A stretch of 64,000 nt of DNA, from NCBI GenBank assembly GCA_015075635.1, contig JABTUA010000003.1:682001-746000 (forward strand), written 5' to 3'. The position numbers and the translations under genes are program-made. Positions 22,776 to 58,926 of the stretch are shown here, one piece after another (positions within the stretch are counted from its first letter, which is position 1; every line of letters begins with the position of its first letter). The DNA comes from Polyangiaceae bacterium. Lineage in GTDB: Bacteria; Myxococcota_A; Polyangia; Polyangiales; Polyangiaceae. The notes beneath the pieces are model-generated. The model was given only the letters and a program-made list of their open reading frames with translations. It did no database searches and was not told where the DNA came from.

Positions 22776-23987
<1,212 letters not shown>

Positions 23988-24073
23988 GGGGGCGCGTTTT
24001 ACCCCGAATCGAGCGCTCGAGATAGGGCGAGATTTCGGCCCAGACTGGGCTCCGCGAGACGGCGAAGCCCGAG

Positions 24074-26997: not shown

Positions 26998-27453
26998 TCA
27001 GGGGCAGCCGAGCTGCGAGAGGCGAGTCGCCGCGAACTTCTCCCTGTCGGCGGACCCGTTGTCGCGGGCCATGTCGCGGGCCTGCGCGAAGAGCGAGCAA
27101 GCCCGCGGAGCGTCGCCGGAGCGCTCGGCGCAGGTCGCCAGGTTGAGCAGCGTGCCCAGCGCGGGGTCGAAGCGCATGCTCTCGGCGAACGCCTCGCAGG
27201 CTTCGGCGTACTTGCCCTGACCCATCAGCGCGCGGCCTTGCCGGAAGAGCTCTTCGGCGCGCGCGGCGTCGCTGGGGCTCGCTGGGGCAGGCTGCGCCTG
27301 GCGGCGCGGTGGCGCCTCGGGTGAAGGTGACGGGTCTGGGGACACCTCCGGCAAGACCACGGTGCTCGGCGCCGACCGGGCAGGATCGCTCGCACAAGCG
27401 AGGCCGAGCAGCGCTAGAACGAAGGCGCTGGCAAGTCTAGACTGAGTGCTCAT
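26998..27453 (-). CDS. Small TPR lipoprotein
   Basis: 151 residues. Signal peptide and lipobox (LLGLAC), a Pro-rich spacer (about 25-60), then two TPR units (about 60-125: FRQGRALMGQGKYAEACEAF and FDPALGTLLNLATCAERSGD). The same TPR pair, with the 'LDPGIGTLLYLADCYEKAG' wording, occurs in the protein encoded at 35116, so they are related. The start codon is needed for the signal peptide and overlaps by 2 bases the start of the divergent kinase gene. Its promoter must therefore lie inside the kinase gene unless that kinase starts further downstream. Probable partner of the kinase. Confidence 0.82.
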   Translation of the reverse strand: MSTQSRLASAFVLALLGLACASDPARSAPSTVVLPEVSPDPSPSPEAPPRRQAQPAPASPSDAARAEELFRQGRALMGQGKYAEACEAFAESMRFDPALGTLLNLATCAERSGDAPRACSLFAQARDMARDNGSADREKFAATRLSQLGCP

Positions 27454-30400: not shown

Positions 30401-31141
30401 GCTTCGGTGCTCCTCACCCGCAACAATCTGGGGGGTATCTACCTCTCGCTCGGGCGCTTCGACGAAGCGCAGCGCGAGCTCTCGGCGGTGATGCAGGTGG
30501 CCGGTCAGAACGAGCCGATGGTGGTGGCGCTCGCCCACTCGAATTCGGCGGATCTGCACGCCCTCCGCGGTGAGCTCGACTCGGCCGTGGAGCTGTACCG
30601 CTCCGCCCACCGCATGAACCGCTCTCGGTCCAACGCCATGGCGGACTCCCACGCGATGCCTGGCCTGGTGCGCGCGCTGGCGATGCGCGGCGGCCCCGGC
30701 GATCTGGAAGAAGCGGGGCGTGTGGCGAACGAGCTCGAGGCGCTCCACGCGGCGAGCGATCTGGCCGAGACTCGCACGCGGTATTTCACCTCTTCTGCCA
30801 TGCTCCTGGATCGCGTCGGCGATCCCGAAGCGGCGCTCGCCCAGGCGCGGCGCGCGCTCGACGTCGGCGAAGAGCGCCGCCAGCAATTCTCTGACCCGTT
30901 CGGCACCGTGCTGGAGGCGCAGTGGATGGAAGCCATCCTGCTCGCACGCCTGGGCCGCACCAGCGCCGCGAAGCGAGCCGCGCAGCGCGCGCGCCAGGAG
31001 CTGCTCAAGACCTCGAAGCACGCGGGGGACAAGGCCAGCGTCGCGATTTACCTGGAGGCCAACCCCTTGCACCGCGCCATCGTCGGCGGGCGGCTGGACA
31101 CGCCGCTGGGGTACACGTGGTTTCCGAGCGAGGTCCCATGA
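27452..31141 (+). CDS. Ser/Thr kinase - AAA ATPase - TPR protein
   Basis: 1229 residues from ATG 27452; a GTG two codons upstream and a GTG at about 27482 are alternatives. The kinase domain (about 40-300) has Gly-loop LGQGGFGQVY, Lys73, HRDVKPSN (162-169) and DFG (183-185). An AAA_16-type ATPase follows: Walker A GEAGSGKS (345-352), Walker B-like LLVVEDLHWADAD near 450. From about 690 the protein is TPR repeats to near the end (ALNNLGTVCHWAGLIPEAV, TRNNLGGIYLSLGRFDEA). No membrane segment, so a large cytoplasmic signalling protein, the type sometimes called tandem kinase/STAND in myxobacteria. Its stop overlaps the next ATG by 4 bases (ATGA). Confidence 0.95.
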   Translation: MSARPGDVTIVTESPTVVESGPRSAPRPDERLFADGDRIVGRYRVEALLGQGGFGQVYRVQDELGDGRPLALKLARLHDAGSRAVEILKSEFALLASLKHPNLAEVHDFGHVRQDVAYFTQQLAPGVPLNQTGLRPDDPEAVPIWAQLCRALEYLHGRGILHRDVKPSNILVDQRARQLTLLDFGISRALGTGEERLLVGTFAYMPPEAISGGPLDARSDLYSLGITLYRQLAGRVPFEGTHSQILSAHMARVPELPSPETVNPQVAAVVERLLAKEPGARYASAAEVARALASANGKELEAEGAESLASYVLSGRFVGHAALHARLLELGFDLEPSAHVLVLSGEAGSGKSRLLREVRQRVQLAWRTFVEVEVRRTWLSKGVLPAIARAVINDDVAARLDDDDRRELARALPELRKRGERITVAVDPDRARQARIDGLGRAIALRFERAPGLLVVEDLHWADADALGLIAQLIGAARRSKARTAFVLATRPGKAADELSSLLGAELLTCDALEPGTSVRLIESMFGQSDLLAGTELGKSLARASHTAQEVQESLRLALDAGAIVRHEGKWQVVRPIPALPLGEVLGQRVSGLDEDCRALALGVAVLGGEAVASAAGAVAELDASLAGAALRRLVRAGVLEERYDREGRAAYAMHDRFRDVVLAGAPERERARAYLAAGRHLRGTAEGDFRVLFEAADHFARARELRLAIRTAAEAAKLAEKSGRPDQAATAVALEIGWQRSLGEVPASTWLRRFDLCLLAGIKEGADEALNALLARLGALDAAERVATLVRKARLALDRGEAEAARREAEQVLEEATALGDARLLSELTWVLARADEVYGHLDRAILSFESAAGFAEQAADARLEARAWLGASLSAIFLGKAGQAGGYAERALRAARAAQDPVAMSESLRCIGNSARETGDIPRALRVYRRAVRAARDGGSPESEAKALNNLGTVCHWAGLIPEAVSALQRSLTLKERLGLSASVLLTRNNLGGIYLSLGRFDEAQRELSAVMQVAGQNEPMVVALAHSNSADLHALRGELDSAVELYRSAHRMNRSRSNAMADSHAMPGLVRALAMRGGPGDLEEAGRVANELEALHAASDLAETRTRYFTSSAMLLDRVGDPEAALAQARRALDVGEERRQQFSDPFGTVLEAQWMEAILLARLGRTSAAKRAAQRARQELLKTSKHAGDKASVAIYLEANPLHRAIVGGRLDTPLGYTWFPSEVP

Positions 31142-41148: not shown

Positions 41149-44100
41149 TCACATCTTCTGAGTTCCACCCACCGGGACGCCCGCACCGCCAGCCGGGGCG
41201 GGGCCCCCGAGCTTCTGGTTCAGCTTCTTCAGCGCGGAGCAGGACCAGACGTTCTTGACCTTCTCTTTGTCGTCCTTGTACCAGCGGCCGTAGTTGTTGC
41301 AGCCGTCGCGCAGCTTGGTGAGGCCCAGGGCGGTGTCCTTCTTGTAGTCGGCCGACCCGCGATAGATGAAGTACCCCATGTTGTAGCAGGCCTGGTAGTT
41401 GCCGAAGTTACAGGCGCGCTGGAAGAACTCGGCGGTCTTCTTGCCGTCCTGCTTCACCCCGTCGCCCTTCTCGTACATCAGCGCCAGCTCGTAGCAGTCG
41501 TTGTTGGAGCGCAGGTAGCAGGCCTTCTCGTGCAGCGTGGCCGCCGTCGCCGGGTCCTTCTTCTCCACGCCGACGCCCTCCTTGTACATCTTGGCCAGGC
41601 TGCGGCAACTCATGGTGTTGCCTCGCTCGCAGCTGCCCTTGCGGATGCGCGCGGCCTCTGCCGGGTTCGGCGAGACTCCTTGCCCGGTGGCGTACATGTC
41701 GGCCATCGCGTCGCAGGCGGACTCGAGCCGGCCGTTGCAGGCCCGATTGTAGTACTTGAACGCCTCTGCGTCGTTGCGCGCCATGCCGCTGTACCCGCTG
41801 CGGTACATCCCGGCGAGGTCGGAGCACGACAGGTAGTGCATCTTGTCGCAGCCCTTGCGGTAGAACTGCACGGCCTTCATCGCGTCCTTCTGGGTGAACG
41901 TGCCGTAGCGGTACCACGAGGCCAGCTTGCCACAGACGGTTGCGTCCCCCTTCTCGCACGACTGCGCGAACAGCTCGAGGGCGCGCTCCTTCGGCGAGCT
42001 CTTGCAGACCTCCTCCTGGATCAGCTTGCCCAGGTTGTCACAGGCCTTCGAGCTGCCCTGCTCGCAGCCGACCTCGTACAGCCCACACGCCTTCTGCTTG
42101 TCCTCCTTCACGCCCTGACCCTGAGCGTAGAGCGCGCCGGTGTCGTTGCAGGAGTCCGCGTAGCCGCCGGAGCACGAGTGCTGGAAGTGGGAGAACGCCT
42201 TGGCGTGATCCGTCTTCACTCCCTTGCCCCAGTAGAAGTCCTGTCCGACCTCGTAGCAGGTCCGCGGGTGGCCGGTGCGGCAGCCTCGCTCGAAGTACTG
42301 ATGAGCCCGGGCGTCGTCCCGGGCCACTCCCTCGCCGTTGCGGTAGAGCTGCCCGATCAAGCGGCAGCCTTCGCCTTCGAACAGGTTGCAGGCCTGCTCG
42401 AAGAACTCGAACGCCTTCACCGCGTCGCGCGCCCGGTAGACACCGGACTGGTAGATCTTCCCGAGCTCGACGCAGGCGTACCCGCTCCCTTCCTTGCAGC
42501 CCTTCTCGATCTTCACGACGGCGTTGTAGGTGTCCTTCTTGACGCCATAGCCGTAGAGCATCAGGTACCCGAGCCGCGCGCAGCCCTCGGCGCCACCCCA
42601 CAGATTGCAGGCCTTCTCGTAGAGCTTGGCGGCCTGCTCGTCGTTCTCCTTCTGCTTCTCGCGCTCCATTCCCGCGCCGCGGAAATAGGTGTTGCCGAGC
42701 TCCGTGCAGCCGAGCGCGCTGTTCTTCTCGCAGGCGCTCTTGAAGTACTCCATGGCCTTGACACGGTCGAGCCCGGCACCGCGCCCGTCGGCCGAATACA
42801 GGATGCCGAGGTGCGCGCAGCCGTCCGGGTTGTCGGCCTTGCAGGCGCGCTGGTAGAGGTTGAACGCCTTCTTGTAGTCCCGGGGCGTGGCCACCCCCTG
42901 CTCGTGCATCACGCCGAGCTCGACGCAGCCCTGCGAGAAGCCGCCGTCGCAGGCGCGCTTGAACTGGGCGAAGGCCGTGTCCACGCTCGCCTCGGGCGCC
43001 GTGCCCGAGCGGTGCATGCGACCCAGGTGCGAGCAGCCCAGAGCGTCGCCGGCCTTGCACGCCTTCTGGAAGGTCTCGAACGCCTTGAAGCGGTCGGCGG
43101 AGACGCCGATGCCGCTCAGGAGGTGTGAGCCGTACTCCGCGCAGGCCGACTCGTCGCCCAGGCCGCACGCCTTCTTGAAGAAGGCGACGGCCTGCATCTG
43201 GTCCTTGCCGGCGTTCCGGTAGATGACCGCGAGCTGGGCGCAGCTCTTGGGGTTGTTCTTGTCGCACTGGCCGCGGCACTCGCCCTCGTTCTTGCCCGAG
43301 CAAGCAAAGGCCTTGACCGTGGACTGCTTCGCGCACTTCGCGCCGTCCCAGACGAAGCCCGCGCTGCACTCCGGGATCTCGTCGGTCTTCGCGGCCACGC
43401 CTTGGGCGTCTTTGGCGGCCTTCTTGGGGGCGCCGAGCGGTCGGAGCTCGAGGCGCAGGAGCGAGCCGCAGCCCTCCGGTGCCTTCTGGGCCTCGGTGCT
43501 GGCGGTCTCGCACTTCTCGATGGACCCGTCCTTGTTGGAGACCGAGCGGCTACTCGAGGTCTTGGCTTCGACGCCGGCGCCGAACAAGCCGGCCACCGTG
43601 CCCATCTTCGAGCGTTCGCCGGTCTTCACCGCAAAGGCGCCGATGGTCGCCCCGCGCACGAAGTGAGTGGCGCCGTCGCATTCACCCTTGAGCTCGGCGG
43701 TGTCCGCATGGGTACGCACCGCCGTGCGCTTGCCGACGATGACCAGACCGATGTCGAGGGTGGTGCCCTTCTGCATGTCGGCGCCCAGCTTCGCGCCGCC
43801 CATCGCGAAGATGCCCGGCAGGTTCGCCGCGACCTCGTCCAGAGAGTCGTAGCGAATCAGCTGCTCCTTCTTGTTCACGCCGACGTAGCCGTAGCTGCCC
43901 TCGATCGAGCAGTCCTTCAGCATCTTGATGGCGTTCTTCTGGTAGCGGACGACGGCGATGCGGTCGCGGGTCAGGACCTCCAGGTCCGTGCGGTGATCCG
44001 GCTCCCAGTCGACGATGAGCGGTTCGGCGTAGGTCGAGACGACGTCTGCTGACTGCCGTCCGGGGATACCGGTGCCGTTGCCGTTCGGGCCCGGCTTGAT

Positions 44101-44181
44101 CCCGCCGCCACCGCAGCCATTCGCACCGACCATCGAGAGTGAGACAGCGGCTGTTGCCGCGAGAAGAACGAACCTCGACAT
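41149..44181 (-). CDS. Giant Sel1/Hcp-like repeat lipoprotein
   Basis: 1010 residues. Signal peptide and lipobox (VGANGC), a globular N-terminal domain (about 30-260) with no name I recognise, then a short Cys-rich linker. After that come about seventeen or more Sel1-like repeats of 36-40 residues to residue 990. Each repeat has the C-x7-C spacing of Hcp proteins ([22 protein letters not shown]), so the solenoid is probably stapled by disulfides outside the cytoplasm. A strong ribosome site, AAGGGAG, sits 5 bases before the ATG. It likely binds other proteins or peptides at the surface. Nothing in the sequence shows which. Confidence 0.9.
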
Positions 44182-46824: not shown

Positions 46825-47010
46825 TTCGTTCCCCGCGTTTGCTGCTGCGCCCTGCCTCGTGCGGGGTTTCTGTCGAGACCCGCCCAGCGGCGCCAGGCGA
46901 CGACTCCCACCTGATGGTGGGGGCGCTCCGGCCTCGCCGGCGTTCTCGTGGGTCCCGGTCTCAGTGGCAGCCCGCGATCTGCTCATGCCAAGACAGTGAG
47001 AGTCGAGTCA
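46825..47010 (-). repeat. 186-bp dispersed element, copy B
   Basis: Reverse-complement partner of copy A (31567-31752), same length. Read on the minus strand it starts at the TGA of the small Stig1-like lipoprotein gene (TGACTCGACT). The hairpin CCGGC-GAG-GCCGG is kept, and a second one, CCACC-N4-GGTGG, is present in this copy. It fills the gap between the convergent thiC and lipoprotein genes. Confidence 0.85.
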
Positions 47011-47445
47011 GTCCGCCGCCGCGTCGGCAGGGCAGCTCGCCGCGGTGGCTTCGCAGCCGTCCAGCACGTTCTTGTTGCAGTCGGCGAAGCCGGGCTGGCA
47101 CTCGTTGGTGCACGTCCCCGCCTGGCAGACCGTGCCCGGGCAGGCGTTCGTGCAGCTCCCGCAGTGCGCCGGATCGGCGTTCTTGTCGGTGCAGACCTCG
47201 TCGCAGCAGATGAACCCGCTCGGGCAATTCGCGCACGGCGCGTCCGACTGCACGTCCGAGAGGCCGGAGTCCGTCCCGCCGTCGCCGGCCGGGACGCACT
47301 GGTTCTGCGCGTTGCACTCGTAGCCGTCGGCGCACTTGCCACTTGGACTGCAATCGCCGTGCGACAGCGAGCCGCCGAGCTCGTCCTCCGCGCAGCCCGT
47401 TGCCAGCGCGACCGCGAGCGCGACCGCCAAACGCCGCTCAGCCAC
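47008..47445 (-). CDS. Short Stig1-like cysteine-rich lipoprotein
   Basis: 145 residues from GTG 47445, overlapping the upstream gene by 8 bases. Signal peptide and lipobox (ALATGC), then the same head as the giant neighbours: an acidic stretch, CSPSGKCADGYECNAQNQC, then CANCPSGFICC...CGSC...CPGTVC and GFADCNKNVLDGCE. It stops after about one and a half modules, with a DAAAD end. It is therefore a mini-version of the three large paralogues and could be a decayed or an ancestral copy. The short open-frame extension before the GTG has no signal peptide, so I prefer GTG. Dispersed element B begins at its stop. Confidence 0.78.
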   Translation of the reverse strand: MAERRLAVALAVALATGCAEDELGGSLSHGDCSPSGKCADGYECNAQNQCVPAGDGGTDSGLSDVQSDAPCANCPSGFICCDEVCTDKNADPAHCGSCTNACPGTVCQAGTCTNECQPGFADCNKNVLDGCEATAASCPADAAAD

Positions 47446-50233
47446 AGCTCCCGTTCGGCATGCAACGCCTCCCCGGCGGGCACTCGGTAGAGCCGCAGAC
47501 GCAGTAGCCGCCGTCCAGGTTGCAGCTGCCCGGGCTGCCATAGTTGCAGTCGGCAGAGTTGTCGCACTTGCAGACCCCAGCGGAGCAGACGAAGCCGTCC
47601 GGACACACCCGACCGCAGGCACCGCAGTTCTGCGGATCGGTGGAGAGCGCGCGGCAGCCCGACGTGCAACACGTGGCGCCGAGCTGACACTTGTCGCCGC
47701 CGTTGCAGCTGCAGTTGCCGCTCTTGCAGGTCTCGCCGACCTGGCACTTGGTGGCGTTGCACTCGCAGCTGCGGGGGCCGGAAGCGGCGAGTGGGCACTT
47801 GCCGCCGGTCCCGCACTCGGCGTCCGCCGTGCAGCCGCACAGGCCCGTCACGCACGCCTTCAAGTTCGAGGCGGTGCAAGCGTTGGAGCAGGTCCCGCAG
47901 TTGTCGGGGTCCGTGGAGGTCGGCTTCTCGCAGCCGTCGTCCGTGACGGGTGGAGGCGGCTGCGAGCAGTCGTCGAAGCCGGACGAGCAGTACGGCGTGC
48001 AGAGGCCGTTGGTGCAGTCCAGGGAGAGCACCTTGGCGGTGCTGCAAGTCCGACCGCACAGGCCGCAGTTCATCGGATCCAGGTTGACGTTGGCCTCGCA
48101 GCCGTCCGTCTTGCTGCCGTTGCAGTCCCCGTACCCGGAGCTACAGGTGAAGCCGCAGGCGCCTCCGATGCAGGTGGGGACGGAGTTCTCGAAGACCGGG
48201 CAGCCGATGTTGCACCCGCTGCAGTGCTGCGGGCTCGTCTGGGTGTTCACGCACTGGCCGCCGCAGTTCACCAGCGGGGGGGTGCAGCTCAGGACGCACT
48301 GTCCGGCCTGGCACACCTTGCCGCCGGTGCAGACGGTGCCGCAGGCGCCGCAGTTGGAGTTGTCGGTCTGAGTGTTGACGCATGCGCTGCCGCACTTGGT
48401 GAAGCCGGAGTTGCACGCAAAGCTGCAGCTGCTCGACGTGCAGATGGGATACCCGTTCGCCGGCGCCGGGGTGCAGGCGTTGCCGCAGCCACCACAGTTC
48501 GGCAGCTGGGTCGGGTTCACGCAAGAAGCGCCGCACTTGAGCAAGCCCGCGTTGCAGGTGAACCCGCAGGCGCCGGCCGAACAGGTCGCCGTGGCGCCGC
48601 TGGGCGCAGCGCAGGCGTTGCCGCAGGCGCCGCAGTTCAGCACGTCGGAGCCCGTTGCCACGCATTGCCCGCTGCAGTTGGTGGTGCCGGTCGGGCAGCT
48701 CAGCGTGCACACGCCGTTCGAGCAGACCTTCCCCGACCCGCAGGCGGTGCCACACGCCCCGCAGTTGTTGTTGTCGGTCTGCTTGTTCACGCAGGCGTTG
48801 CCGCACAGGGAGAGGCCCGAGCCGCAGCTCGCCAGGCAGGTGCCCAGAATGCACGCCATGCTGCCGCCGACCGGAGCAGCCGGACATGCCTTGCCGCAGG
48901 CGCTGCAGTTCTCCTTGTCGTTCGAGGTGTTCACGCAGGCACCGTTGCACTTCGCGTAGCCCGTGCTGCACGAGAGGTCGCAAGCGCCGGCAGTACAAGT
49001 GGGCATGCCGTTCGCCACACCGGGGCAAGCCGTGCCGCAGCCACCGCAGTTGCTGGGATCGGTCTTCACGTCCACGCACTGGGCGCCGCACTGCGTGGTG
49101 CCGGTCGGGCAGATCGACACGCAGGCTCCAGCGGCGCAGAGATCGCCGCCCTTGCAAGCGTTGCCGCAGGCGCCGCAGTTGGTGGGGTCCACCTTGACGT
49201 CCACGCACTTGTCTCCGCACTTGGAGAAGCCGGTGTCACAGACGAAGCCGCAGGCGCTGCCGGAGCAAGTCGCCGTGGCGTTGGTTGGCGCAGTGCAAGT
49301 CGTGCCGCAGGCGCCGCAGTTTTGTGGGTCGGCCTTGGTGTCGGTGCAGCTCGCGCCGCACTGGGCGAAGCCGGCGTCGCAGGTCACGCCGCACTTGCCG
49401 GCGGCGCAGCTCGGCTTGCCGTTCGGCGGGTCGGGACAGGCGTTGCCGCAGCCTCCGCAGTTTTCGACGTCGGTCTGCGGCTCCACGCAGGAAGCGCCGC
49501 ACTGCGCGAGGCTGCCGCAGCTCGTCGAGCAAGCGCCTGCGTTGCAGACCTCGCCGGTGGCGCAGATCTTCCCGCAGCTGCCGCAGTTGCTCGGGTCGGT
49601 CTTGGTGTTCACGCAGCCGGACTCGCCGCACGCGGTGAACCCCGAGTCGCAACTCGCCGAGCACTTGCCGGCGTCGCAGGCGCGCGCGCCGTTGCTCACG
49701 GGCGGGCAGGCCTGGGCGCAGGCGCCGCAGTTCTCGGGGTCGCCGCTGGTGTTGACGCAGGTGACGTCACACAGTGTGGCGCTGGCGCCGCAGTCGAGCT
49801 TGCAAGCGCCGGCCTCGCAGCCCGCCTGTCCACCCACGGGCGCGCTGCACTCGGTCTTGCAGGCGCCGCAGTTCTTCGGATCTTGGGCGGCGTTCACTTC
49901 GCAGCCGTTGACCACGTTGTTGTCGCAGTCCAGAAACCCCAGCGCGCACTGGTTCGTGCACTTCCCGTTCGTGCAAGTGGTGCCCGGACACGCCGCTCCA
50001 CACGAGCCGCAGTTGAGGTCGCTGGTCTTCAGGTCCACGCACGCGCCGTCGCAGCACGTCTCGTCGGAGGCGCACGCGGCGCAAGGGTCGGCGTCGGTGC
50101 CCGCGTCCGTGCCGCCCACGCCGCCGGTGCCCGGCTTCTCTTGCAGCTCGTCGATGGAGACGAAGCAGCTCGCCAGAGCGAGAGCCACGAGCACAGAGAG
50201 CACATGGCGCAGAGGTGCGCGCCGCCCGATCAC
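47438..50233 (-). CDS. Giant Stig1-like cysteine-repeat lipoprotein (931 aa)
   Basis: 931 residues from GTG 50233. Signal peptide and lipobox (ALASC), a short Gly/Asp-rich spacer, then about seventeen modules of 40-47 residues with the NCGxCGxxC signature, each with about eight cysteines. The modules resemble the Stig1 domain (CCxGxCVDxxxDxxNCGxCG), known from plants and frequent in myxobacteria. Every module must fold by disulfides outside the cytoplasm. No enzymatic site is visible. The last module ends CPPGRRCMPNGSCG, as in the other two. Its role could be adhesion or surface layer; unknown. Third large paralogue of the kinase operon. Confidence 0.9.
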   Translation of the reverse strand: MIGRRAPLRHVLSVLVALALASCFVSIDELQEKPGTGGVGGTDAGTDADPCAACASDETCCDGACVDLKTSDLNCGSCGAACPGTTCTNGKCTNQCALGFLDCDNNVVNGCEVNAAQDPKNCGACKTECSAPVGGQAGCEAGACKLDCGASATLCDVTCVNTSGDPENCGACAQACPPVSNGARACDAGKCSASCDSGFTACGESGCVNTKTDPSNCGSCGKICATGEVCNAGACSTSCGSLAQCGASCVEPQTDVENCGGCGNACPDPPNGKPSCAAGKCGVTCDAGFAQCGASCTDTKADPQNCGACGTTCTAPTNATATCSGSACGFVCDTGFSKCGDKCVDVKVDPTNCGACGNACKGGDLCAAGACVSICPTGTTQCGAQCVDVKTDPSNCGGCGTACPGVANGMPTCTAGACDLSCSTGYAKCNGACVNTSNDKENCSACGKACPAAPVGGSMACILGTCLASCGSGLSLCGNACVNKQTDNNNCGACGTACGSGKVCSNGVCTLSCPTGTTNCSGQCVATGSDVLNCGACGNACAAPSGATATCSAGACGFTCNAGLLKCGASCVNPTQLPNCGGCGNACTPAPANGYPICTSSSCSFACNSGFTKCGSACVNTQTDNSNCGACGTVCTGGKVCQAGQCVLSCTPPLVNCGGQCVNTQTSPQHCSGCNIGCPVFENSVPTCIGGACGFTCSSGYGDCNGSKTDGCEANVNLDPMNCGLCGRTCSTAKVLSLDCTNGLCTPYCSSGFDDCSQPPPPVTDDGCEKPTSTDPDNCGTCSNACTASNLKACVTGLCGCTADAECGTGGKCPLAASGPRSCECNATKCQVGETCKSGNCSCNGGDKCQLGATCCTSGCRALSTDPQNCGACGRVCPDGFVCSAGVCKCDNSADCNYGSPGSCNLDGGYCVCGSTECPPGRRCMPNGSCG

Positions 50234-50280
50234 AGCGTTTCAGCGTACCACGTCGAGGGAGCGCGGCTCAATCGCGACGC

Positions 50281-53200
50281 CTACCGGCAAACGTTGCCGG
50301 GGAAGCAGCGCGCACCTTCTGGGCAGTAGGTCGAGCCGCACTGACAGACGTTCGTGGGCCCCTGCTTGGCGCATGCGACGGTCGAGCCACCCATCTGGCA
50401 GTCCGCCACTTGCGCGCACATGCACTTGCCATTCTCGCAGGTGAAGCCCGGCGGACACAGGCGACCGCAGGCACCGCAGTTCAGCGGGTCCTGTGCGAGA
50501 TCGCGACAGCCGACGGACGGGCAACACGTCGTCGCGAAGCTACCGGCCCCGCAGGGCGGGCCGCCGTTGCAGGAGCAGGCGTAGGAAACTTCGTTCCCTG
50601 CGTCCGCCGCCTGGGTGCCACCGGTCCCGGACGTGCCTCCACCGCCGGTTGTGCCCCCGACGCTGGTGCCACCACCGCCGACCGTGCCGCCTCCACCGGT
50701 GGTTCCCCCGCCGCCGGTGGTTCCTCCGCCGCCGGTGGTGCCACCCGTGCCGCCGGTTCCGCTCGTGCCGCCGGTTCCGCCTCCGCTGCCCACGGCTTTG
50801 CACACCTCACCGGGATTGCACAGGTTGCCACCGCACTGGCACACGCTGCCCACGCAGTCCTCTTCGGCGGTCTTCTCTGGAGCACACTGGTAGGCGCTCG
50901 CGCAACCGCACGCCTTGAGCGGCAGAGACTGCGGGTCGCAGACCAGGCCGGACGTGGAGTAGGCCTGCAGCGCGCAGTTCGCGCCACAGCCGCCGCAGGT
51001 GTTGTCCCCCAAGGCGGTCTCGCAGCCGTTGTCCGTGAAGCCCGTCGGTGGGAAGTTGCAGTTGCTGTAGCCGAGGTCGCAGGTCGAGTTGCAGCTGCCG
51101 TTCGAGCACGCGATCGACATCACGTGGTTGTCCTGGCAAGCACGCCCGCACGCGCCGCAGTGCAGCGGGTTGGTCTGGAAGTTTATCTCGCAGCCGTCCG
51201 TCAGGACGCCGTTGCAGTTCTGCCACGGGTACTGGCAGCTGATCCCGCAGGTGCCGCCGACGCATGTCGGCGTGCTGTTGGGCCGGTTCGGGCAGACGTT
51301 GCCGCAGGCGCCGCAGTTCTGCGGGCTCGTCTGGGTGTTCACGCACTGGCCGCTGCAGTTCACGAGCGGAGGGGTACAGCTCACCACGCACTGGCCGCTC
51401 TGACAGACCTTGCCGCTCCCACAGGCGTTGCCACAAGCGCCACAATTGGCGTTGTCCGTCTGCGTGTTCACGCACGCGTTGCCGCACTTGGTGAAGCCGG
51501 AGTTGCAGGCGAAGCTGCAAGCGCTGGAGGCGCAGACCGGGTAGCCGTTCGCAGGCGCAGGCGCGCAGTCGTTGCCGCAGCCCCCGCAGTTTGGAAGCTT
51601 GGTGGGGTCCACGCAGGCGTTGCCGCACTTGATCAGGGTGCCGGTGCAGTTGAAGCCGCACTGCCCGCCCGAGCAGAACGCCTGCCCGCCGGTCGGAGCC
51701 GTGCAGGCGTTGCCGCAGGCGCCGCAGTTGAACACGTCGGAGCCGGTGGAGACGCACTGCCCGCCGCAGTTCGTCGTGCCCCCGGGGCAATTCAGCGTGC
51801 ACACGCCGTTGGAACAGACCTGGCCGGAGCCGCAAGCATTGCCGCAGGCGCCGCAGTTGGCGTTGTCGGTCTGCTTGTTCACACACGCGCTGCCGCATAG
51901 CGAGAGCCCGGTGCCGCAGCTCGGCGTGCACGTCCCGCTGGCGCACGCCATGCTGCCGCCGGTGGGCGCGGCGGGGCAGGCGTTGCCGCAGGCGCCGCAG
52001 TTGCTCTTGTCGGTGGCGGTGTTGACGCAGGCGCCGTTGCACTTGGTGTAGCCGTTGCTGCAGGTGAAATCGCAGGCGCCGTTCACGCAGGCGGGGGCGC
52101 CGTTCGACACGCCCGGGCACGCCGTGCCGCAGCCGCCGCAGTTGCTGGCGTCGGTCTTGGTGTCCACGCACTGGGTTCCGCACTGGGTCGTGCCGGTGGG
52201 GCAGTTCGACACGCACGCCCCGTTGGCGCAGAGCTGGCCGGTGCTGCAAGCCGTCCCGCAGCCGCCGCAGTTGGCGATGTCCGTCTTGGTGTCCACGCAC
52301 TTGTCACCGCACTTGGCGAAGCCCGTGTCGCAGACGAAGCCACAGGCGCTGGCCGAGCAGGTCGCCGTCGCGTTGGCCGGCGCCGTGCAGCCGTTGCCAC
52401 AGCTGCCGCAGTTCTGCGCGTCGGTCTTGGTGTCCGTGCACGCGGTGCCGCACTTGGCGAAGCCGGCGTCGCAGGTCACCCCGCAGGCGCCGGCGGCGCA
52501 GCTCGCCTTGCCGTTCTGCGGCGCGGGGCAGGCATTGCCGCAACTTCCGCAGTTGCCCACGTCGGTCTGAGGGTTCACGCAGGAAGCTCCGCACTGGGTC
52601 ATGCTGCCGCAGCTCGTGGAGCAGGCGCCGGCGTTGCACACCTGCCCGGTGGCGCAGATCTTGTCGCAGCCGCCGCAGTGCGCCGGCTCCGTCTGCGTGT
52701 TGACGCAGCCGTCCTCGCCGCAGCCCGTGAACCCGGTGTCACAGGAGACGCCGCACGACCCTCCGGAACAAGTGCGCGCGCCGTTGTCGGCCGCGGGGCA
52801 CGCTTTGGCGCAACCCCCGCAGTTCTCCGGGTCGCCGCTGGTGTCGGTGCAGGTGACGTCGCAGAGCGTCGCTCCAGTCGCGCACTCCAGCGTGCACGCC
52901 CCTTTGGTGCATCCCGCTTGTCCACCCACCGGCGCGCTGCACTCGGTCTTGCAGGCGCCGCAGTTCTTCGGGTCGCTGGCGGCGTTCACCTCGCAGCCGT
53001 TCACCACGTTGTTGTCGCAGTCCAAGAACCCCAGCGCGCAGGTGTTCGTGCAGGCGGAGCTCACGCAGGTCGTGCCGGGGCACGGGGAGTCGCACGCGCC
53101 GCAGTGCTGCGGGCTCGTCTTCAAGCTCACGCACTCGCCGCTGCAGCAGGTCTCGCCCGCGGCGCAGTTGGCGCACGGGTCGGCGTCGCCGGCGTCGTTT

Positions 53201-53412
53201 CCGCCGCCGCTGCCGCCGGAGCCGAGCTTCACGCACTTGCCGCTATTGCACTCGAACCCCGGCGCGCACTCGCCGTTGTCGTCGCAAGCACCTCCCGCCA
53301 GGTACTCGGACAGGTCGTCGGCGGCGCAGCCGGTCTGGGCCAGGGCGTTCCAGAGCACGAACGCCGACAGCGCCGCCAGGAAACGCACGGTCGAGGTTTT
53401 GGTCTTGCTCAT
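50281..53412 (-). CDS. Giant Stig1-like cysteine-repeat lipoprotein (1043 aa)
   Basis: 1043 residues. Signal peptide and lipobox (AQTGC), DNGECAPGFECNSGKC head, then about seventeen Stig1-like modules in the same order as in its neighbours. It has an extra Gly/Thr/Val-rich linker (about 880-940, units like TTGGGG) near the C-terminus that the others lack, which probably makes a flexible stalk. The ATG at 53412 has a GGAG ribosome site and begins 10 bases after the stop of the preceding paralogue. A head segment of about 45 residues (around CALGFLDCDNNVVNGCEVNA) is nearly identical to the one in the 931-residue paralogue, suggesting recent duplication or gene conversion. Confidence 0.9.
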   Translation of the reverse strand: MSKTKTSTVRFLAALSAFVLWNALAQTGCAADDLSEYLAGGACDDNGECAPGFECNSGKCVKLGSGGSGGGNDAGDADPCANCAAGETCCSGECVSLKTSPQHCGACDSPCPGTTCVSSACTNTCALGFLDCDNNVVNGCEVNAASDPKNCGACKTECSAPVGGQAGCTKGACTLECATGATLCDVTCTDTSGDPENCGGCAKACPAADNGARTCSGGSCGVSCDTGFTGCGEDGCVNTQTEPAHCGGCDKICATGQVCNAGACSTSCGSMTQCGASCVNPQTDVGNCGSCGNACPAPQNGKASCAAGACGVTCDAGFAKCGTACTDTKTDAQNCGSCGNGCTAPANATATCSASACGFVCDTGFAKCGDKCVDTKTDIANCGGCGTACSTGQLCANGACVSNCPTGTTQCGTQCVDTKTDASNCGGCGTACPGVSNGAPACVNGACDFTCSNGYTKCNGACVNTATDKSNCGACGNACPAAPTGGSMACASGTCTPSCGTGLSLCGSACVNKQTDNANCGACGNACGSGQVCSNGVCTLNCPGGTTNCGGQCVSTGSDVFNCGACGNACTAPTGGQAFCSGGQCGFNCTGTLIKCGNACVDPTKLPNCGGCGNDCAPAPANGYPVCASSACSFACNSGFTKCGNACVNTQTDNANCGACGNACGSGKVCQSGQCVVSCTPPLVNCSGQCVNTQTSPQNCGACGNVCPNRPNSTPTCVGGTCGISCQYPWQNCNGVLTDGCEINFQTNPLHCGACGRACQDNHVMSIACSNGSCNSTCDLGYSNCNFPPTGFTDNGCETALGDNTCGGCGANCALQAYSTSGLVCDPQSLPLKACGCASAYQCAPEKTAEEDCVGSVCQCGGNLCNPGEVCKAVGSGGGTGGTSGTGGTGGTTGGGGTTGGGGTTGGGGTVGGGGTSVGGTTGGGGTSGTGGTQAADAGNEVSYACSCNGGPPCGAGSFATTCCPSVGCRDLAQDPLNCGACGRLCPPGFTCENGKCMCAQVADCQMGGSTVACAKQGPTNVCQCGSTYCPEGARCFPGNVCR

Positions 53413-53422
53413 GCCGTTCTCC

Positions 53423-56371
53423 TCACCCGCATCCCCCGTTCAGGACGCAGCGTTTCCCAGGGCCACAGAGCACGCCGGCGCAGCGGCACTTGCCCACCTC
53501 GCAGGTGCCGCCCGGCCCGCAGTCGGTGTTGCTGTCGCAGATGCAGAGGGAGTCCTGGCAGTCGAAGCCGATGGGGCAGGCCCGCCCGCAGCCGCCGCAG
53601 TGCGCGGGGTCGTGAGTCACCACCACGCAGCCAGCGCCGGGACAGCAGGCCGGGATCCCCTGGAAGATGTTGGTGTCGCAGGCGGGGCCACCGTTGCAGG
53701 AGCAGCTCTGCGTGATCGCCGTCGGGCTCGACCAGGCCAGGCCGCCGGTGACCCCCGACTTGCACACCTCGCCCGCCGCACAGAACAGGCCACCGCACTT
53801 GCACACGCCGCTCGAGTCGCAGCCGTTCACCAGCGCCGTCGGGCTGTCCGTGCAGGCGCTGTCCTGTTTGCAGCCGCAGGTGATGGGCGCCGGGCTGGCC
53901 GGGCTGCAGACCAGCGAGGTGCCACTGGTCGCTGCGCAGCCGGCCCCGCAACCCGCGCAGTTGGCGTTGCTCGTGTCGGCCTCGCAGCCGTTGTCCGGCA
54001 TCGGCGACGGCAGGTTGCCCGCCGCCGGCATCGTGCAGTTCACCTTCCCGAGCTGGCACGTCGAGGTGCAGACGCCGTTGTTGCACTCGAGGGACATGAC
54101 GCCGTTGTTCGAGCACTGTCGGTTGCAGCGACCGCAGTGGAGCACGTTGGTGTCCACCCGGGTCTCGCAGCCGGCGGCGTTGGGGTTGCAGTCGTCCCAG
54201 CCGCTCTCGCACTTGAACCCGCACACTCCGGCGGAGCAGCTCGGAATCGTGTGCGGAGGAGTGGGGCACTGGTTGTTGCAGGTCCCGCAGTGGTTCGGAT
54301 CGTTCTGCGGGTTCACGCACTGGCCGCCGCAGCTGACCAGCGGGGCGGTGCAGGTCGTGACGCACTGGCCGGCCTGGCACACCTTGCCGCCCGAGCAGGC
54401 GTTGCCGCAGGCGCCGCAGTTGTTGTTGTCGATCTGGGTGTTGACGCAGGCCGTGCCGCACTTGGTGTAGCCGCCGTTGCAGCCGAACGTGCACGAGCTC
54501 GAAGCGCAGACCGGGTACCCGTTGGCCGGGGCCGGCACGCAGGTGACCCCGCAGCCCCCGCAGTTCGGGAGCTGGGTCGGATTCACGCAGGTGTTGCCGC
54601 ACTTGATCAGGCCGGAGTTGCAGGTGAAGCCGCAGGTCCCTCCCGTGCAGGAAGCCTGCCCGCCCGTCGGGGCCGAGCAGACGTTGCCGCAGGCGCCGCA
54701 GTTCTGCGGGTCGGAGCCGGTGGCCACGCACTGACCGCTGCAATTGGTGGTCCCGGTCGGGCAGCTCACGGTGCAGGCGCCGTTCGAGCAGACCTTGCCG
54801 CTCCCGCAGGCGGTGCCGCAGGCGCCGCAGTTCATGTTGTCCGTCTGCGCGTTCACGCATGCGTTGCCGCACAGGGTGAGGCCGGCCGGGCAGGCCTTTA
54901 CGCAGCTCCCGGTCACGCACGTGACGGAGCCGCCGCTCGGCGGCGTGCAGGCGCTGCCGCAGGCGCCGCAGTTCTGGGCATCGCTCGAGGTGTTGACGCA
55001 GGCGCCGTTGCACTTCGTGAAGTTGGTCGCGCAGGTCACGTCGCAGGCGCCGTTCGTACACGCCGGCTGACCGTTCGGGGTGCCGGGACACGCCGTGCCG
55101 CAGGCGCCGCAGTTGGCCGGGTCGCTCTTGGTGTCGGTGCAGGCCGCCCCGCACTGGGTCGTCCCGCTGGGGCAGCTCGCCACGCACTTACCCGTCGCGC
55201 AGAGCTCGCCGGCGGCGCAGACGTTTCCGCACGCCCCGCAGTTCGTGACGTCGGAGGCAGTGTCCACGCACTTGTTGCCGCACTGCGCGTAGCCGGTGTT
55301 GCAGACGAAGCCGCAGCTCTTCGCGGAGCAGATCGCCTGCGCGTTGGCCGGCGCCGTGCACCAGAGCCCGCAGCCTCCGCAGTTGTTCGGGTCGGTGCTG
55401 ATGTCCACGCACAGGGCGCCGCAGGCCACGAATCCGGCGTCGCAGCTCCCGCCGCACTTGCCGGCGGCGCAGGTCGCCTTGCCGTTCTTCGGGGCGGGGC
55501 AGGCGTTGCCGCAGGCGCCGCAATGGTCCACGTCCGCCTGCGGGTCCACGCAAGATGCGCCGCACTGCGTGAGCGACCCGCAGCTCGTGTCGCACTTGCC
55601 CACGTTGCACACCTCGCCGGTCGGGCAGAGCGTGCCGCAGGTTCCGCAGTTCGCCGGGTCGGTCTTGGTGTTCACGCAGCCGTCGCTGCCGCAGCTCGTG
55701 AAACCTTGGTCGCAGCCGGCCCCGCACTGGCCCGAGGCGCAGGTCCTGAGCCCGTTGGCCACGGCGGGGCACTCGGTGGCGCAGTCCCCGCAGTTGTCGG
55801 GATCGCTGGCGACGTCCAGGCAGGAGACGTCGCAGAGCTTCGCCGGAGCGCTGCACTCGAGCGTGCAGACGCCGACCTTGCAGGCGCCGCTGCCGCCGAC
55901 CGGCGCGCTGCACGCCGCCTTGCAAGCGCCGCAGTTCTTCGGATCCGCCGCCGCGTCCACCTCGCAGCCGTTGGTGACGTTCTGATCGCAGTCCAGGCTC
56001 CCGAGCTTGCAGACGTTGGTGCAGGCGCCGCCCTGGCAGGTGGTGCCCGGGCAGGGCTTGCCGCAACCGCCGCAGTGCTCGGAGCTGGTGTTGACGTCCA
56101 CGCAGGCGCCGTCGCAGCACTTCTCGCCGGCGGCACAGCTCGCGCACGGATCGGCGTCTGCACCGGCGTCGGTCCCATCGGGGAGGCACAGGCCATCGAC
56201 GCAGTGGTATCCCGTTGCGCACTCCCCGTTCGCGTCGCACTCGCCCTCGGCGAGATAGCTCGACAAGTCGTCGCTGGCGCAGCCGGCCGGCGCGAGCAGC
56301 GCCGTCATCGCGAGCGCGAAGACGGCGCCGAGGACGCGGTGCAATCGAGAGGTGATGCGCGCCCGCCCCAT
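53423..56371 (-). CDS. Giant Stig1-like cysteine-repeat lipoprotein (982 aa)
   Basis: 982 residues from ATG 56371. The start is fixed by an AGGAG ribosome site 5 bases upstream, itself overlapping the stop of the PEGA gene; a longer open frame exists but lacks this site. Signal peptide and lipobox (APAGC), DANGECATGYHC head, then about seventeen Stig1-like modules in the common order. The late region is looser (VTGGLAWSSPTAITQ). Ends CGPGKRCVLNGGCG. Probable surface lipoprotein, made stoichiometrically with the PEGA protein and kinase because gene spacing is 8-10 bases. Confidence 0.9.
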   Translation of the reverse strand: MGRARITSRLHRVLGAVFALAMTALLAPAGCASDDLSSYLAEGECDANGECATGYHCVDGLCLPDGTDAGADADPCASCAAGEKCCDGACVDVNTSSEHCGGCGKPCPGTTCQGGACTNVCKLGSLDCDQNVTNGCEVDAAADPKNCGACKAACSAPVGGSGACKVGVCTLECSAPAKLCDVSCLDVASDPDNCGDCATECPAVANGLRTCASGQCGAGCDQGFTSCGSDGCVNTKTDPANCGTCGTLCPTGEVCNVGKCDTSCGSLTQCGASCVDPQADVDHCGACGNACPAPKNGKATCAAGKCGGSCDAGFVACGALCVDISTDPNNCGGCGLWCTAPANAQAICSAKSCGFVCNTGYAQCGNKCVDTASDVTNCGACGNVCAAGELCATGKCVASCPSGTTQCGAACTDTKSDPANCGACGTACPGTPNGQPACTNGACDVTCATNFTKCNGACVNTSSDAQNCGACGSACTPPSGGSVTCVTGSCVKACPAGLTLCGNACVNAQTDNMNCGACGTACGSGKVCSNGACTVSCPTGTTNCSGQCVATGSDPQNCGACGNVCSAPTGGQASCTGGTCGFTCNSGLIKCGNTCVNPTQLPNCGGCGVTCVPAPANGYPVCASSSCTFGCNGGYTKCGTACVNTQIDNNNCGACGNACSGGKVCQAGQCVTTCTAPLVSCGGQCVNPQNDPNHCGTCNNQCPTPPHTIPSCSAGVCGFKCESGWDDCNPNAAGCETRVDTNVLHCGRCNRQCSNNGVMSLECNNGVCTSTCQLGKVNCTMPAAGNLPSPMPDNGCEADTSNANCAGCGAGCAATSGTSLVCSPASPAPITCGCKQDSACTDSPTALVNGCDSSGVCKCGGLFCAAGEVCKSGVTGGLAWSSPTAITQSCSCNGGPACDTNIFQGIPACCPGAGCVVVTHDPAHCGGCGRACPIGFDCQDSLCICDSNTDCGPGGTCEVGKCRCAGVLCGPGKRCVLNGGCG

Positions 56372-56379
56372 GCGAACTC

Positions 56380-57411
56380 CTAGAAGTGCCCGGAGTAGGC
56401 GGCGCTGCACCCGCCCGGAAGACAAACGAAGCCGACGGACGGCGGCTTCTCGCTCTTGCTGCTGCCTTTCGACAGGTCCACGGCCAGGAGCACGCCTCCG
56501 GCCACCACCGCCACCGCGCCAACCCCGGCGAAGATGCGGGCCGTCGTCTGCTGGCTCTCCATCTTGTCGAAGGCATCGTGGCGCGCCAGCTGGGTCCGCT
56601 CGTTCTTCACGTCCTCCTCGGAGCTCGAGCGCATCATCTCGAACACGGCGGCGCCGCCCAGGGCTACCGCGCCGACCCCGAACGCGGTCCAGGTCATCCA
56701 GCTCACTCCGCCGCTCCCCTTGTCGTCCTGGCCGGGACGTGTCGGAGTGGTCGGTCCCGCGGGCTCTTTGGGACCTGCGGCCTCGGCCGCCTTCGGTTGC
56801 ATCTCCACCGATACGTCCATGGCGCGGTGCGCGGTCAGCTCGAACGACTGCTCAGCGTCCTGGTAGCCCTCGAAAGAGAGCTTCACCCGATGCGTGCCGG
56901 GGAGGATCTCGCCGGTCCAGGGCGCGACCCCGACCGGTTGGTCGTCGATGCGAACCGTCGCGCCTTCGATGTTGGAGAGGATGGTGACCTGCTGCCGGCC
57001 GCGCTCGGTCTGGAGCTTAGACTCCAGCTCGCCGACCCGCTTCTCCACGTTGGCGCGATCGCTGGCGTCGGTGCTCTGTCGCAGGTACTCGCGGTAGAAG
57101 CGCAGCGCGCCCGCCGTGTCCAGGAGCTTGTCGTAGGCGCGAGCGGCGTTGAAGCTCAGGGCCGGGCTCGGGTACTCGCGGTGCGCGTCGAGGAAGGCGT
57201 CCACGGCGTCCTTGAAGCGCTCGGCCTTGAAGGCCGCCACGCCGCGCTCGAAGTGCTTCTGCGCCCGGGCCTTGGCGTCCGCGTCGCGCTTCGGCTGGGA
57301 GGCGGCGGGCTTCGCCGCCGTTTGGGCGCCGGCGCTCGCCGAAGCCAGGGTCAGCGCGCCGGCGAGCGCGCACCACACGAATCGGTTACCCAAGAAAGCC
57401 CGCTCTAACAT
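56380..57411 (-). CDS. TPR/PEGA protein with two C-terminal membrane segments
   Basis: 343 residues. Signal peptide (about 1-29), a TPR region (about 45-130, FERGVAAFKAERFKDAVDAF), a PEGA domain (about 141-200, with VAPWTGEILPGTHRVKLSFEG) and a Pro-rich linker. Then come two membrane segments (about 236-257 and 290-312) with a charged loop between. PEGA domains are Ig-like surface modules. Gene follows the kinase gene after 9 bases. Same plan as the protein at 35116, so I infer an adaptor between the kinase tail and the surface lipoproteins. Confidence 0.88.
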   Translation of the reverse strand: MLERAFLGNRFVWCALAGALTLASASAGAQTAAKPAASQPKRDADAKARAQKHFERGVAAFKAERFKDAVDAFLDAHREYPSPALSFNAARAYDKLLDTAGALRFYREYLRQSTDASDRANVEKRVGELESKLQTERGRQQVTILSNIEGATVRIDDQPVGVAPWTGEILPGTHRVKLSFEGYQDAEQSFELTAHRAMDVSVEMQPKAAEAAGPKEPAGPTTPTRPGQDDKGSGGVSWMTWTAFGVGAVALGGAAVFEMMRSSSEEDVKNERTQLARHDAFDKMESQQTTARIFAGVGAVAVVAGGVLLAVDLSKGSSKSEKPPSVGFVCLPGGCSAAYSGHF

Positions 57412-57420
57412 GGCAAAAGC

Positions 57421-58926
57421 TCAGAAAGTCTTCAGTTGGTCGAGAGGATCTTTTTCCGGCGGCTTCGGCTTCTCCGCCGGCTTCGCGGTGGTCTCAACCG
57501 GCTTGACCGCGGGCTTGGACACCGGCGGCTTGCCCACCGGCTTCTTGCCCGTCGGCGTGGCGACGGGCTCCGCGCTGGCCACCGGCTCGGCACTCGCGGC
57601 CGGCTCCGCGCTGGCGGTGACGGCCGGCTCGACCTTGGGCTCGGTCGGCTTCTGCGTCAGCTCGGGTGCCGCGGTCGGCTGCGCCACGGTCGGCTTCTCG
57701 GGGGAGGGCGCGGCGGACGGGTTGCCGATGCTCTTCAGTATGACGCCGACGCCGATGCCCAGGACGACGACGGCGGCCACGGCGACGGCGATCCAGGTGG
57801 AGCGACCGCGGGCGGGCGTCGCGCCGGAGACCGTCGCGGAGAGCTGCGTCGCGCCGTGTCCGGAGCTGGCAGCAGCCACCGGCGCCGCGTTGACGGTCGG
57901 CATCATCGATTGACCCGCGGGGACCGAGTCCGCGGGCCGCTCGATCCAGGAGCTGTGGAGATTCGAGCCCGTGATGTCGTCGGCCACGCTGTGGGCCAGC
58001 GCCCAGCGGGCCAGCGCGCCGCCCAGCTCTCGCATGCTGGCCCAGCGCTGATCCGGGTCTTTCTCCAGGCCCTTCGCGATCACGCTCCAGAGCTCGCCGT
58101 CCCCGATGCCGAGCTCGGTGATCGGCTTGGGCTTGCCCTCCAGGATGGCGACGACCAGCGCCGTGTAGGTGTTGCCGTTGAAGGGCAAAAGGCCCGTGAG
58201 GACCTCGTAGAGCACCACGCACAACGCCCAAATGTCGGTGCGGTGATCGACGTCCAGACCGCGCGCCTGCTCGGGCGACATGTAGGCCGGGCTTCCCATG
58301 GCGGCGCCCATCTGAGTGATGCGCTGGTTGTCCTCGCGTTCCAGCTTGGCGATGCCGAAGTCCACGACCTTGGGCTGGGTCTTGCCGTTCTCTTCCTGAG
58401 TCAGGAAGATGTTCTCCGGCTTGAGATCGCGGTGCACGATCTTCTTGGCGTGGGCCACCGCCAGGGCATCCGCGATGGGCAGCAGCGTACGGACGGCCCG
58501 GAGCGCGGGCATCGGGCCCTTGCGCTTGATGACGGCGCCCAGATCCTCCCCGTTCAGCAGCTCCATCACGATGTACGGGTCGCCCGCCGGGGTCTTGCCG
58601 AAGTCCGAGACTCGGACGATGGCCGGGTGCCCCAGGCGGGCGGCGGCCCGGGCCTCCTGGAGCAGGCGGTTGGCCAGCCCCGCGTGCTGGAGCTCCGCGC
58701 GGATGAACTTGATGGCGACGTGGATGTCGAGCGCCTCGTTGTGCGCGACCCAGACACTCGCCATGCCGCCTTCTCCCAGCCGGCGCAGCAGGCGGTACTT
58801 CTCCCCGATGACCTGGCCCTCGGTATAGGGGTCGAGCTTGCTCGACGACGGCGACACCTTCTGGGTCTCGACCGAGATGGTTTCGGCCGAATCGAGCAGG
58901 TCTACTGGAGTCTTGGGCTCCGTCAT
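57421..58926 (-). CDS. Transmembrane Ser/Thr protein kinase, head of the Stig1 operon
   Basis: 501 residues. Kinase domain (about 42-310): Gly-loop LGEGGMASVW (50-59), Lys73, HRDLKPEN (165-172), DFG (189-191) and GSPAYMSPEQARG. After a linker comes one membrane segment (about 375-398, WIAVAVAAVVVLGIGVGVIL), then an external tail of about 100 residues rich in Pro, Ala and Lys with EPVASAEPVAT repeats. First gene of a six-gene run of the same strand. Its substrates are unknown; the tail is on the same side as the lipoproteins. Confidence 0.95.
   Translation of the reverse strand: MTEPKTPVDLLDSAETISVETQKVSPSSSKLDPYTEGQVIGEKYRLLRRLGEGGMASVWVAHNEALDIHVAIKFIRAELQHAGLANRLLQEARAAARLGHPAIVRVSDFGKTPAGDPYIVMELLNGEDLGAVIKRKGPMPALRAVRTLLPIADALAVAHAKKIVHRDLKPENIFLTQEENGKTQPKVVDFGIAKLEREDNQRITQMGAAMGSPAYMSPEQARGLDVDHRTDIWALCVVLYEVLTGLLPFNGNTYTALVVAILEGKPKPITELGIGDGELWSVIAKGLEKDPDQRWASMRELGGALARWALAHSVADDITGSNLHSSWIERPADSVPAGQSMMPTVNAAPVAAASSGHGATQLSATVSGATPARGRSTWIAVAVAAVVVLGIGVGVILKSIGNPSAAPSPEKPTVAQPTAAPELTQKPTEPKVEPAVTASAEPAASAEPVASAEPVATPTGKKPVGKPPVSKPAVKPVETTAKPAEKPKPPEKDPLDQLKTF

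Follow-up and report, generated by a model that had tools for sequence, protein, structure and literature searches.

The window (the whole stretch of 64,000 nt of Polyangiaceae bacterium DNA analysed here) harbours a predicted operon of six co-directional minus-strand genes, extending from position 58926 to 47008, in which a transmembrane Ser/Thr kinase and a TPR/PEGA protein are followed by cysteine-rich (CR) predicted lipoproteins. Judged by its arrangement in related genomes, the kinase-PEGA-CR gene set is a real, conserved unit. Families of the individual parts are known; new, as far as the literature searched shows, appear to be their assembly, the rhythm of module lengths in the CR arrays, and a motif at the end of the kinase tail. 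In this literature (most subscription journals are outside its coverage), no described system of this form was found, in accord with an earlier note on this DNA. Four sequence features support the view of a functional unit: the array rhythm, the even number of cysteines, the two-Cys end of the PEGA protein, and the peptide at the kinase end.

To our knowledge, neither signal nor partner is known for most eukaryote-like kinases of such kind. The genome contains more than a hundred eukaryote-like kinases. For the one considered here, the TPR/PEGA protein is suggested by the gene set as a partner and the last few kinase residues as a contact point, together with a class of outer components, the following lipoprotein.

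Organization of the operon and its conservation in relatives

The kinase gene is followed by the TPR/PEGA gene, by genes of three giant Cys-rich lipoproteins (CR1, CR2 and CR3), and by a short one (CR4), with gaps of 9, 8, 10 and 47 bases, and finally an 8-base overlap. Gene coordinates and domain matches thus bear out the earlier description of six genes on one strand, with these gaps and overlap and in the kinase-PEGA-lipoprotein order. The genes are:

57421..58926, minus strand: transmembrane Ser/Thr kinase, 501 aa (Pfam PF00069, 1e-43; HRD, DFG and APE-like motifs; TM)
56380..57411, minus strand: TPR/PEGA adaptor, 343 aa (Pfam PEGA, 1e-12, and TPR; AlphaFold; gap of 9 after the kinase)
53423..56371, minus strand: CR1, precursor of 982 aa, 160 non-lipid Cys (lipobox LAPAGC; NF041328; gap of 8)
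50281..53412, minus strand: CR2, 1043 aa, 160 non-lipid Cys (NF041328; gap of 10)
47438..50233, minus strand: CR3, 931 aa, 156 non-lipid Cys, GTG start (NF041328; gap of 47)
47008..47445, minus strand: CR4, one-module predicted lipoprotein, 145 aa, 18 non-lipid Cys, GTG start (overlaps CR3 by 8 bases)

The longest ORF of CR1 begins at a TTG at 56425, within the PEGA gene; the start was set at the ATG at 56371 because the signal peptide and the lipobox (...LLAPAGC) come after it. A consensus scan found no sigma-70-like promoter on the minus strand, the consensus saying little in this phylum. Genes of a 5'-nucleotidase and of Hsp33 are located 101 bases upstream of the operon, and those of ThiC (opposite strand) and of a Sel1-repeat protein downstream. 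Hsp33 and the 5'-nucleotidase were rejected as operon parts, as they adjoin it within the genus of the window only. The Sel1-repeat protein has 1010 residues (41149-44181), and both sister species likewise have a relative, with 4-4.5% Cys, downstream of the operon. The window also contains further Ser/Thr kinases (27446-31141 and 7724-9556), one of them fused to AAA and TPR regions. A match to Lgt, prolipoprotein diacylglyceryl transferase (Pfam E 2e-63), covers residues 812-1059 of a 1205-residue ORF at 22776-26393. This ORF either carries a long extension at its N-terminus or has its start set wrongly.

Two species of the genus of the window retain the operon together with its flanks. Other Polyangiaceae genera show the same kinase-PEGA-CR order, often with gaps of about 10 bases, in unrelated chromosomal surroundings, and two further cases (L214, L215) come from a second family of the order (f10). 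Named relatives are MAGs of Polyangiaceae, Myxococcales, and Deltaproteobacteria. As the same order and spacing are met with at unrelated sites in other genera, the arrangement is more than chance. According to the earlier note, a lack of conservation of the gene order in relatives would speak against its reading; with the order conserved in several genera and in a second family, this objection falls.

A profile of nine PEGA proteins, compared with 183 genomes of the order, disclosed a distinct top group within the family, which forms a supported (starred) clade (99/97) in a tree of 61 PEGA proteins. A Cys-rich gene follows directly downstream of 25 of the 35 scorable PEGA genes in this clade, as opposed to none of the 21 outside it; the next gene is not a CR gene in 10 of the 35.

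Cysteine-rich arrays: module lengths, pairing and fold

The arrays in CR1-CR3 match Pfam Stig1 (PF04885) with E-values of 3e-39, 4e-37 and 2e-45, respectively. The NCBIfam family NF041328, “MXAN_6577-like cysteine-rich protein”, is the tighter name (E 1e-108 to 3e-149). It shares with the operon proteins the repeat module itself, and CR1, CR2 and CR3 score far above its cut-off of 100 bits (491, 357 and 376 bits), with CR4 below it (25 bits). The previously noted figures of about seventeen modules in proteins of 931-1043 residues agree with the 17 module anchors found in each of CR1-CR3, the first 13 of them regularly spaced, but the designation Stig1-like is the broader label, the curated myxobacterial family being NF041328. 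No mention of MXAN_6577 was found in the literature searched, again with most subscription journals outside its coverage; the “Stig1” in PMC9839799 is part of peptide labels and not the domain. A PHROGs search in the operon analysis gave no match.

Lipoboxes LAPAGC, LAQTGC, LALASC and LATGC follow the signal peptides of CR1 to CR4, and on this ground all four are predicted lipoproteins; their location at the outer membrane or cell surface is assumed from the lipobox. CR2 carries in addition a Gly/Thr-rich insert near its C-terminus.

A regular module comprises eight cysteines. Consecutive modules in the window measure 47, 47, 48, 42, 47, 47, 43, 47, 48, 43, 46, 48 and 43 residues, so each third module is about four residues shorter. 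The regular nine-module stretches are:

54422..55651, minus strand: CR1, module lengths 42, 47, 47, 43, 47, 47, 43, 46, 48
51448..52680, minus strand: CR2, module lengths 42, 47, 47, 43, 47, 48, 43, 46, 48
48356..49588, minus strand: CR3, the stretch folded by AlphaFold

The 47-47-43 rhythm is kept in other genera, although modules there are ~ 30% identical to those of the window at non-Cys positions, which equals background. A sequence super-repeat of three modules was rejected: the identity of modules at a lag of 3 does not clearly exceed that at other lags, so the rhythm lies in lengths and not in recent copying. Recent expansion of the arrays was rejected as well, as CR1-CR3 can be aligned in register over their first 13 modules, which argues for duplication of whole genes.

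In the genome of the window, with CR sequence as the sole criterion for choosing loci, the rhythm was confined to the three operon arrays. The other Cys-rich arrays of this genome are roughly uniform, with modules of about 43 residues, and stand alone, in contrast to the 47-47-43 arrays placed behind kinase and PEGA genes. Uniform module length is an observation of the present analysis and does not enter the definition of NF041328; the 47-47-43 lengths of the operon arrays mark a subtype and are compatible with membership in the family. Classification by length gave 40 rhythmic and 18 roughly uniform arrays. Of the former, 24 are located after a PEGA gene, 6 after another operon array, and 2 directly after a kinase, 6 are unlinked, and 2 lie at a contig edge; the latter comprise 12 unlinked arrays and 6 at contig edges, with no linked one. 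Without edges, the comparison of linked and unlinked arrays (32 vs 6 and 0 vs 12) gives a Fisher p of 1.5e-7, which is indicative only, given the kinship among rows and the retrieval of many loci through their PEGA gene. Fair samples for the rhythm are the genome of the window, surveyed by CR sequence, and the search with an array profile; the latter picked up unlinked rhythmic arrays as well.

Within the order, six of the 47-47-43 arrays stand alone. Outside the order, such arrays were detected in families f50 and f26 (L266, L267, L268), with no kinase-PEGA operon around them, and this distribution indicates an array type of greater age or mobility than the operon. In two loci (L213, L216), rhythmic Cys-rich arrays follow directly after the kinase, a PEGA gene being absent in between. 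One Cys-rich ORF (G163, L227:3658-10161), 2168 residues long, comprises nearly forty consecutive modules of exactly 43 residues.

Cysteine makes up about 16% of the CR lipoproteins. Non-lipid cysteines are even in number in 32 of the 33 complete operon CR proteins, which are related and built of eight-Cys modules, and hence not independent. Counts are 160, 160, 156 and 18 in the window and in one sister species, and 159, 160 and 156 in another; eight CR proteins of other genera have exactly 100. The sole odd count, 159 in the first array of L062, is accompanied by a Cys-to-Gly change visible in the alignment. The lipobox rule used for counting is anchored on the operon start and scores hydropathy and lipobox letters, and not parity; it was written after the first counts. 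Parity supports full disulfide pairing, in which the lipidated Cys would be the only single one, and so favours the disulfide-bonded lipoproteins proposed earlier.

The AlphaFold model of nine CR3 modules is composed entirely of beta-hairpins (pLDDT 81) and shows a distant local resemblance to EGF arrays (Foldseek TM 0.14). The VIA structural search returned only weak EGF-, RSPO- and CCP-like matches (Z ≤ 4.7), and a PDB sequence search with the array profile gave no match. The arrays are similar to tandem EGF arrays (NELL, Notch, uromodulin) in being rows of small disulfide-rich beta-hairpin domains, but sequence kinship was not found, and TM is 0.14 and Z below 5. They are very large, apparently fully Cys-paired bacterial proteins with a three-module rhythm, for which no solved relative was found by sequence.

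The kinase tail and the TPR/PEGA adaptor

The kinase domain (residues 44-296) is of intact Hanks type, with HRDLK, DFG and APE-like motifs. It is followed by one TM helix and a 104-residue Pro/Ala-rich tail, in agreement with the transmembrane kinase with an external Pro/Ala tail of the earlier note. Two features of this part are:

57736..57792, minus strand: TM segment, residues 379-397, IAVAVAAVVVLGIGVGVIL, the hydropathy maximum beyond the kinase domain
57424..57450, minus strand: C-terminal peptide DPLDQLKTF, end motif like L[KMLI]xP[YF], fitting its broad form only

With transmembrane Ser/Thr kinases of PknB/StkP type, the protein shares a cytoplasmic Hanks-type kinase, one TM helix, and an external tail. 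It differs from them in the lack of PASTA domains (no Pfam match in the kinase), in a low-complexity tail with a conserved end peptide, and in having the adaptor and lipoproteins in its operon; the match to the PASTA-type family NF033483 (284 bits, E 2e-84) is under the 450-bit cut-off.

Tails of kinases beside clade PEGA genes are Pro/Ala-rich, of low complexity and about 80-155 residues long, and resemble each other at the C-terminus. The end motif is found near the C-terminus of 27 of 29 such kinases in its broad form and of 20 in the strict form, L[KMLI]xP[YF], compared with 0.5 and 0.02, respectively, for shuffled tails. The pattern was devised after tails were inspected, so the shuffle test is flattering and control kinases are the better comparison: the motif occurs in none of 16 kinases without PEGA and in none of 14 beside other PEGA genes in the genome of the window. 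It is also found where the kinase is transcribed divergently from the PEGA gene (L104, L106, L128, L129) and where no Cys-rich gene follows downstream (L067, L117, L122, L124, L125), and therefore tracks the PEGA clade and not the lipoprotein. This points to a putative contact of kinase and PEGA protein rather than of kinase and lipoprotein.

The L213 kinase, which has no PEGA gene between it and the array, ends in a Gly/Lys repeat without the motif. Second kinases near operons (L110:11795-13354, L126:5178-6833 and L216:2876-4465) end in LDLMAPEYAK, RDLIAPDYAR and NDLINPYPDMPLK, respectively; these end peptides are related, so further forms of the tail motif may exist.

The adaptor consists of a signal peptide, TPR, PEGA, two long helices (a probable TM hairpin), and a C-terminal beta-hairpin. 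PEGA (PF08308) is matched with 48.3 bits, against a gathering score of 20.8, and mean pLDDT of the AlphaFold model is 77, with about 89-98 in the TPR and PEGA region. Its parts are located as follows:

57001..57297, minus strand: TPR domain, residues 39-137 (AlphaFold; Foldseek)
56806..56994, minus strand: PEGA domain, residues 140-202, a beta domain (Pfam, AlphaFold)
56392..56439, minus strand: C-terminal beta-hairpin, residues 325-340, with Cys330 and Cys335 at the turn (AlphaFold, low confidence, pLDDT about 50-60)

PEGA proteins of the clade mostly end in a two-Cys motif like VGCxxxxCxxxxxGxF, the Cys pair being absent in some that have a CR gene (L108, L110, L123, L127, L132).

Foldseek matches of the TPR domain include peptide-binding TPRs (Hop, CHIP, Sgt2, Tom71) and designed consensus TPRs, the latter fitting as well as peptide binders do. 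Among 16 sequences, residues resembling a carboxylate clamp are frequent (N88 in 16, a basic residue at position 125 in 14, R107 and R111 in 15). N88 and basic residues are common in TPRs and designed TPRs match equally, so docking of the kinase tail is put forward here conditionally. The likeness to Hop, CHIP and Sgt2 lies in the TPR fold, which in those proteins holds the C-terminal peptide of Hsp70/Hsp90. Those are cytosolic, eukaryotic, and bind chaperones ending in EEVD, whereas this TPR would be periplasmic and face an end like L[KMLI]xP[YF], so the comparison is one of analogy.

Interpretation of the operon and kinase-PEGA cassettes in the genome

As the best explanation, held with some reserve, we suggest that the operon encodes an envelope-spanning signalling module. 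The terminal peptide of the kinase would dock in the TPR groove that the PEGA protein presents in the periplasm, much as Hsp70/Hsp90 tails do in Hop or CHIP. Array lipoproteins would be brought to the outer membrane as stiff rods similar to EGF arrays, with only the lipidated Cys unpaired, and the PEGA protein would link rod to kinase. Assembly of the rod, load on it or its contact might then alter kinase activity, to which the cytoplasm would respond. In the conjecture of the earlier note, the kinase would control or sense how a surface layer or an adhesin is assembled; the direction could also be the opposite, with the kinase acting on rod genes or on rod production without sensing the rods.

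It is possible, albeit rather unlikely, that the CR proteins serve as surface rods for adhesion or recognition, in contact with prey or kin, and that kinase and PEGA protein govern how they are made or exported, with no sensing involved. A stalk would fit the lipoboxes, the nearly constant length of the rods, and the paired cysteines, and expression might be controlled through the shared operon. In TraA of Myxococcus xanthus, a kin receptor in outer-membrane exchange, Cys-rich tandem repeats were proposed to form a rigid stalk (PMC3325183). TraA is the closest studied myxobacterial protein with such a stalk, being likewise an envelope protein with Cys-rich tandem repeats. However, TraA has PA14, TIGR04201 repeats, and a MYXO-CTERM tag, and its partner TraB an OmpA-like domain, while the operon proteins differ in the predicted lipid anchor, NF041328 modules, and kinase and PEGA partners. 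CR1-CR4 show no Pfam match to PA14 at E ≤ 0.01, and an NCBIfam scan gave NF041328 only, with TIGR04201 and MYXO-CTERM (TIGR03901) absent. No ligand-binding domain (PA14, lectin) was found in CR1-CR4, and the way the kinase end peptide tracks the PEGA clade suggests a periplasmic contact of the kinase, beyond cytoplasmic output.

We consider improbable a monitor of redox state or disulfide stress in the envelope, in which the two-Cys tail of the PEGA protein would be a thiol switch and the 150-odd cysteines of a lipoprotein would report or buffer oxidising capacity to the kinase. The conserved Cys pair in the PEGA tail, the cysteine content of the lipoproteins, and the redox chaperone Hsp33 upstream of the operon are in favour of it, but even counts and the regular build of the modules fit disulfides that are structural and permanent, the tail pair is missing in several CR operons, and the Hsp33 neighbour was seen only in the genus of the window.

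The genome (9.47 Mb) is rich in all three gene families, with at least 150 kinase matches listed, 34 PEGA genes, and about 35 Cys-rich genes. Their abundance would allow common myxobacterial genes to adjoin by chance and to work separately, and Cys-rich genes are indeed not generally enriched near kinases in this genome (6 observed vs 4.2 expected, among the kinase matches listed). Nevertheless, we regard chance as very unlikely, as order and spacing recur in distant genera, and the PEGA clade, array rhythm, and kinase end motif go together. The least probable are lipoproteins that bind or store metal with cysteines as ligands under control of the kinase, a role suggested by the very high cysteine content but hardly compatible with even counts, regular 8-Cys modules, a model resembling disulfide domains, and lipoboxes that place CR proteins in the oxidising envelope.

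Among the matches listed, at least 21 of the 34 PEGA genes are found beside a kinase (≤ 2.5 kb), against 3.3 ± 1.7 expected and with no count as high in any of 500 shuffles, and nearly all of these pairs have the kinase first and on the same strand. This excess makes the kinase-PEGA pair a general cassette in the genome. The gene set singled out in the earlier note therefore recurs as a conserved whole, although its kinase-PEGA part is not special to the locus (21 of 34, among matches listed). Where another PEGA gene beside a kinase has a close gene downstream of it, this next gene encodes a lipoprotein in 5 of 14 cases by rule, and in 7 by eye, compared with 9 of 168 ordinary genes (5.4%; p 6e-4 for the 5 of 14). 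These downstream lipoproteins are diverse: three are Gly-rich (likely beta-helix), and the others include propeller-like proteins and one that is Cys-rich.

By these comparisons, the operon is one version, predicted to carry cysteine rods, of a general kinase-adaptor-lipoprotein cassette. Returning to the signalling module, kinase and PEGA protein would then form a general platform on which different lipoproteins are mounted. We further entertain, as a doubtful possibility, that plug-in signalling operates in Polyangiales, where a kinase with a peptide-ended periplasmic tail and a TPR/PEGA adaptor would form an unvarying platform, and its copies, each with its own tail peptide and lipoprotein, would give a single genome many insulated envelope sensors. 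That their lipoprotein types would be the cysteine rod of the operon, a Gly-rich, likely beta-helix form, and a propeller-like form is held with the same hesitation.

Cassettes with Gly-rich lipoproteins are located in the genome of the window at 3.05 Mb of C1 (L249), 2.46 Mb of C2 (L256), and 1.86 Mb of C3 (L263). In each of the three, the kinase terminates in KLP[AG]SGL, another tail motif that is cassette-specific. In the same genome, a lipoprotein methionine sulfoxide reductase (MsrA, Pfam E 4e-65; L265:1588-2232) is encoded directly after a PEGA gene.
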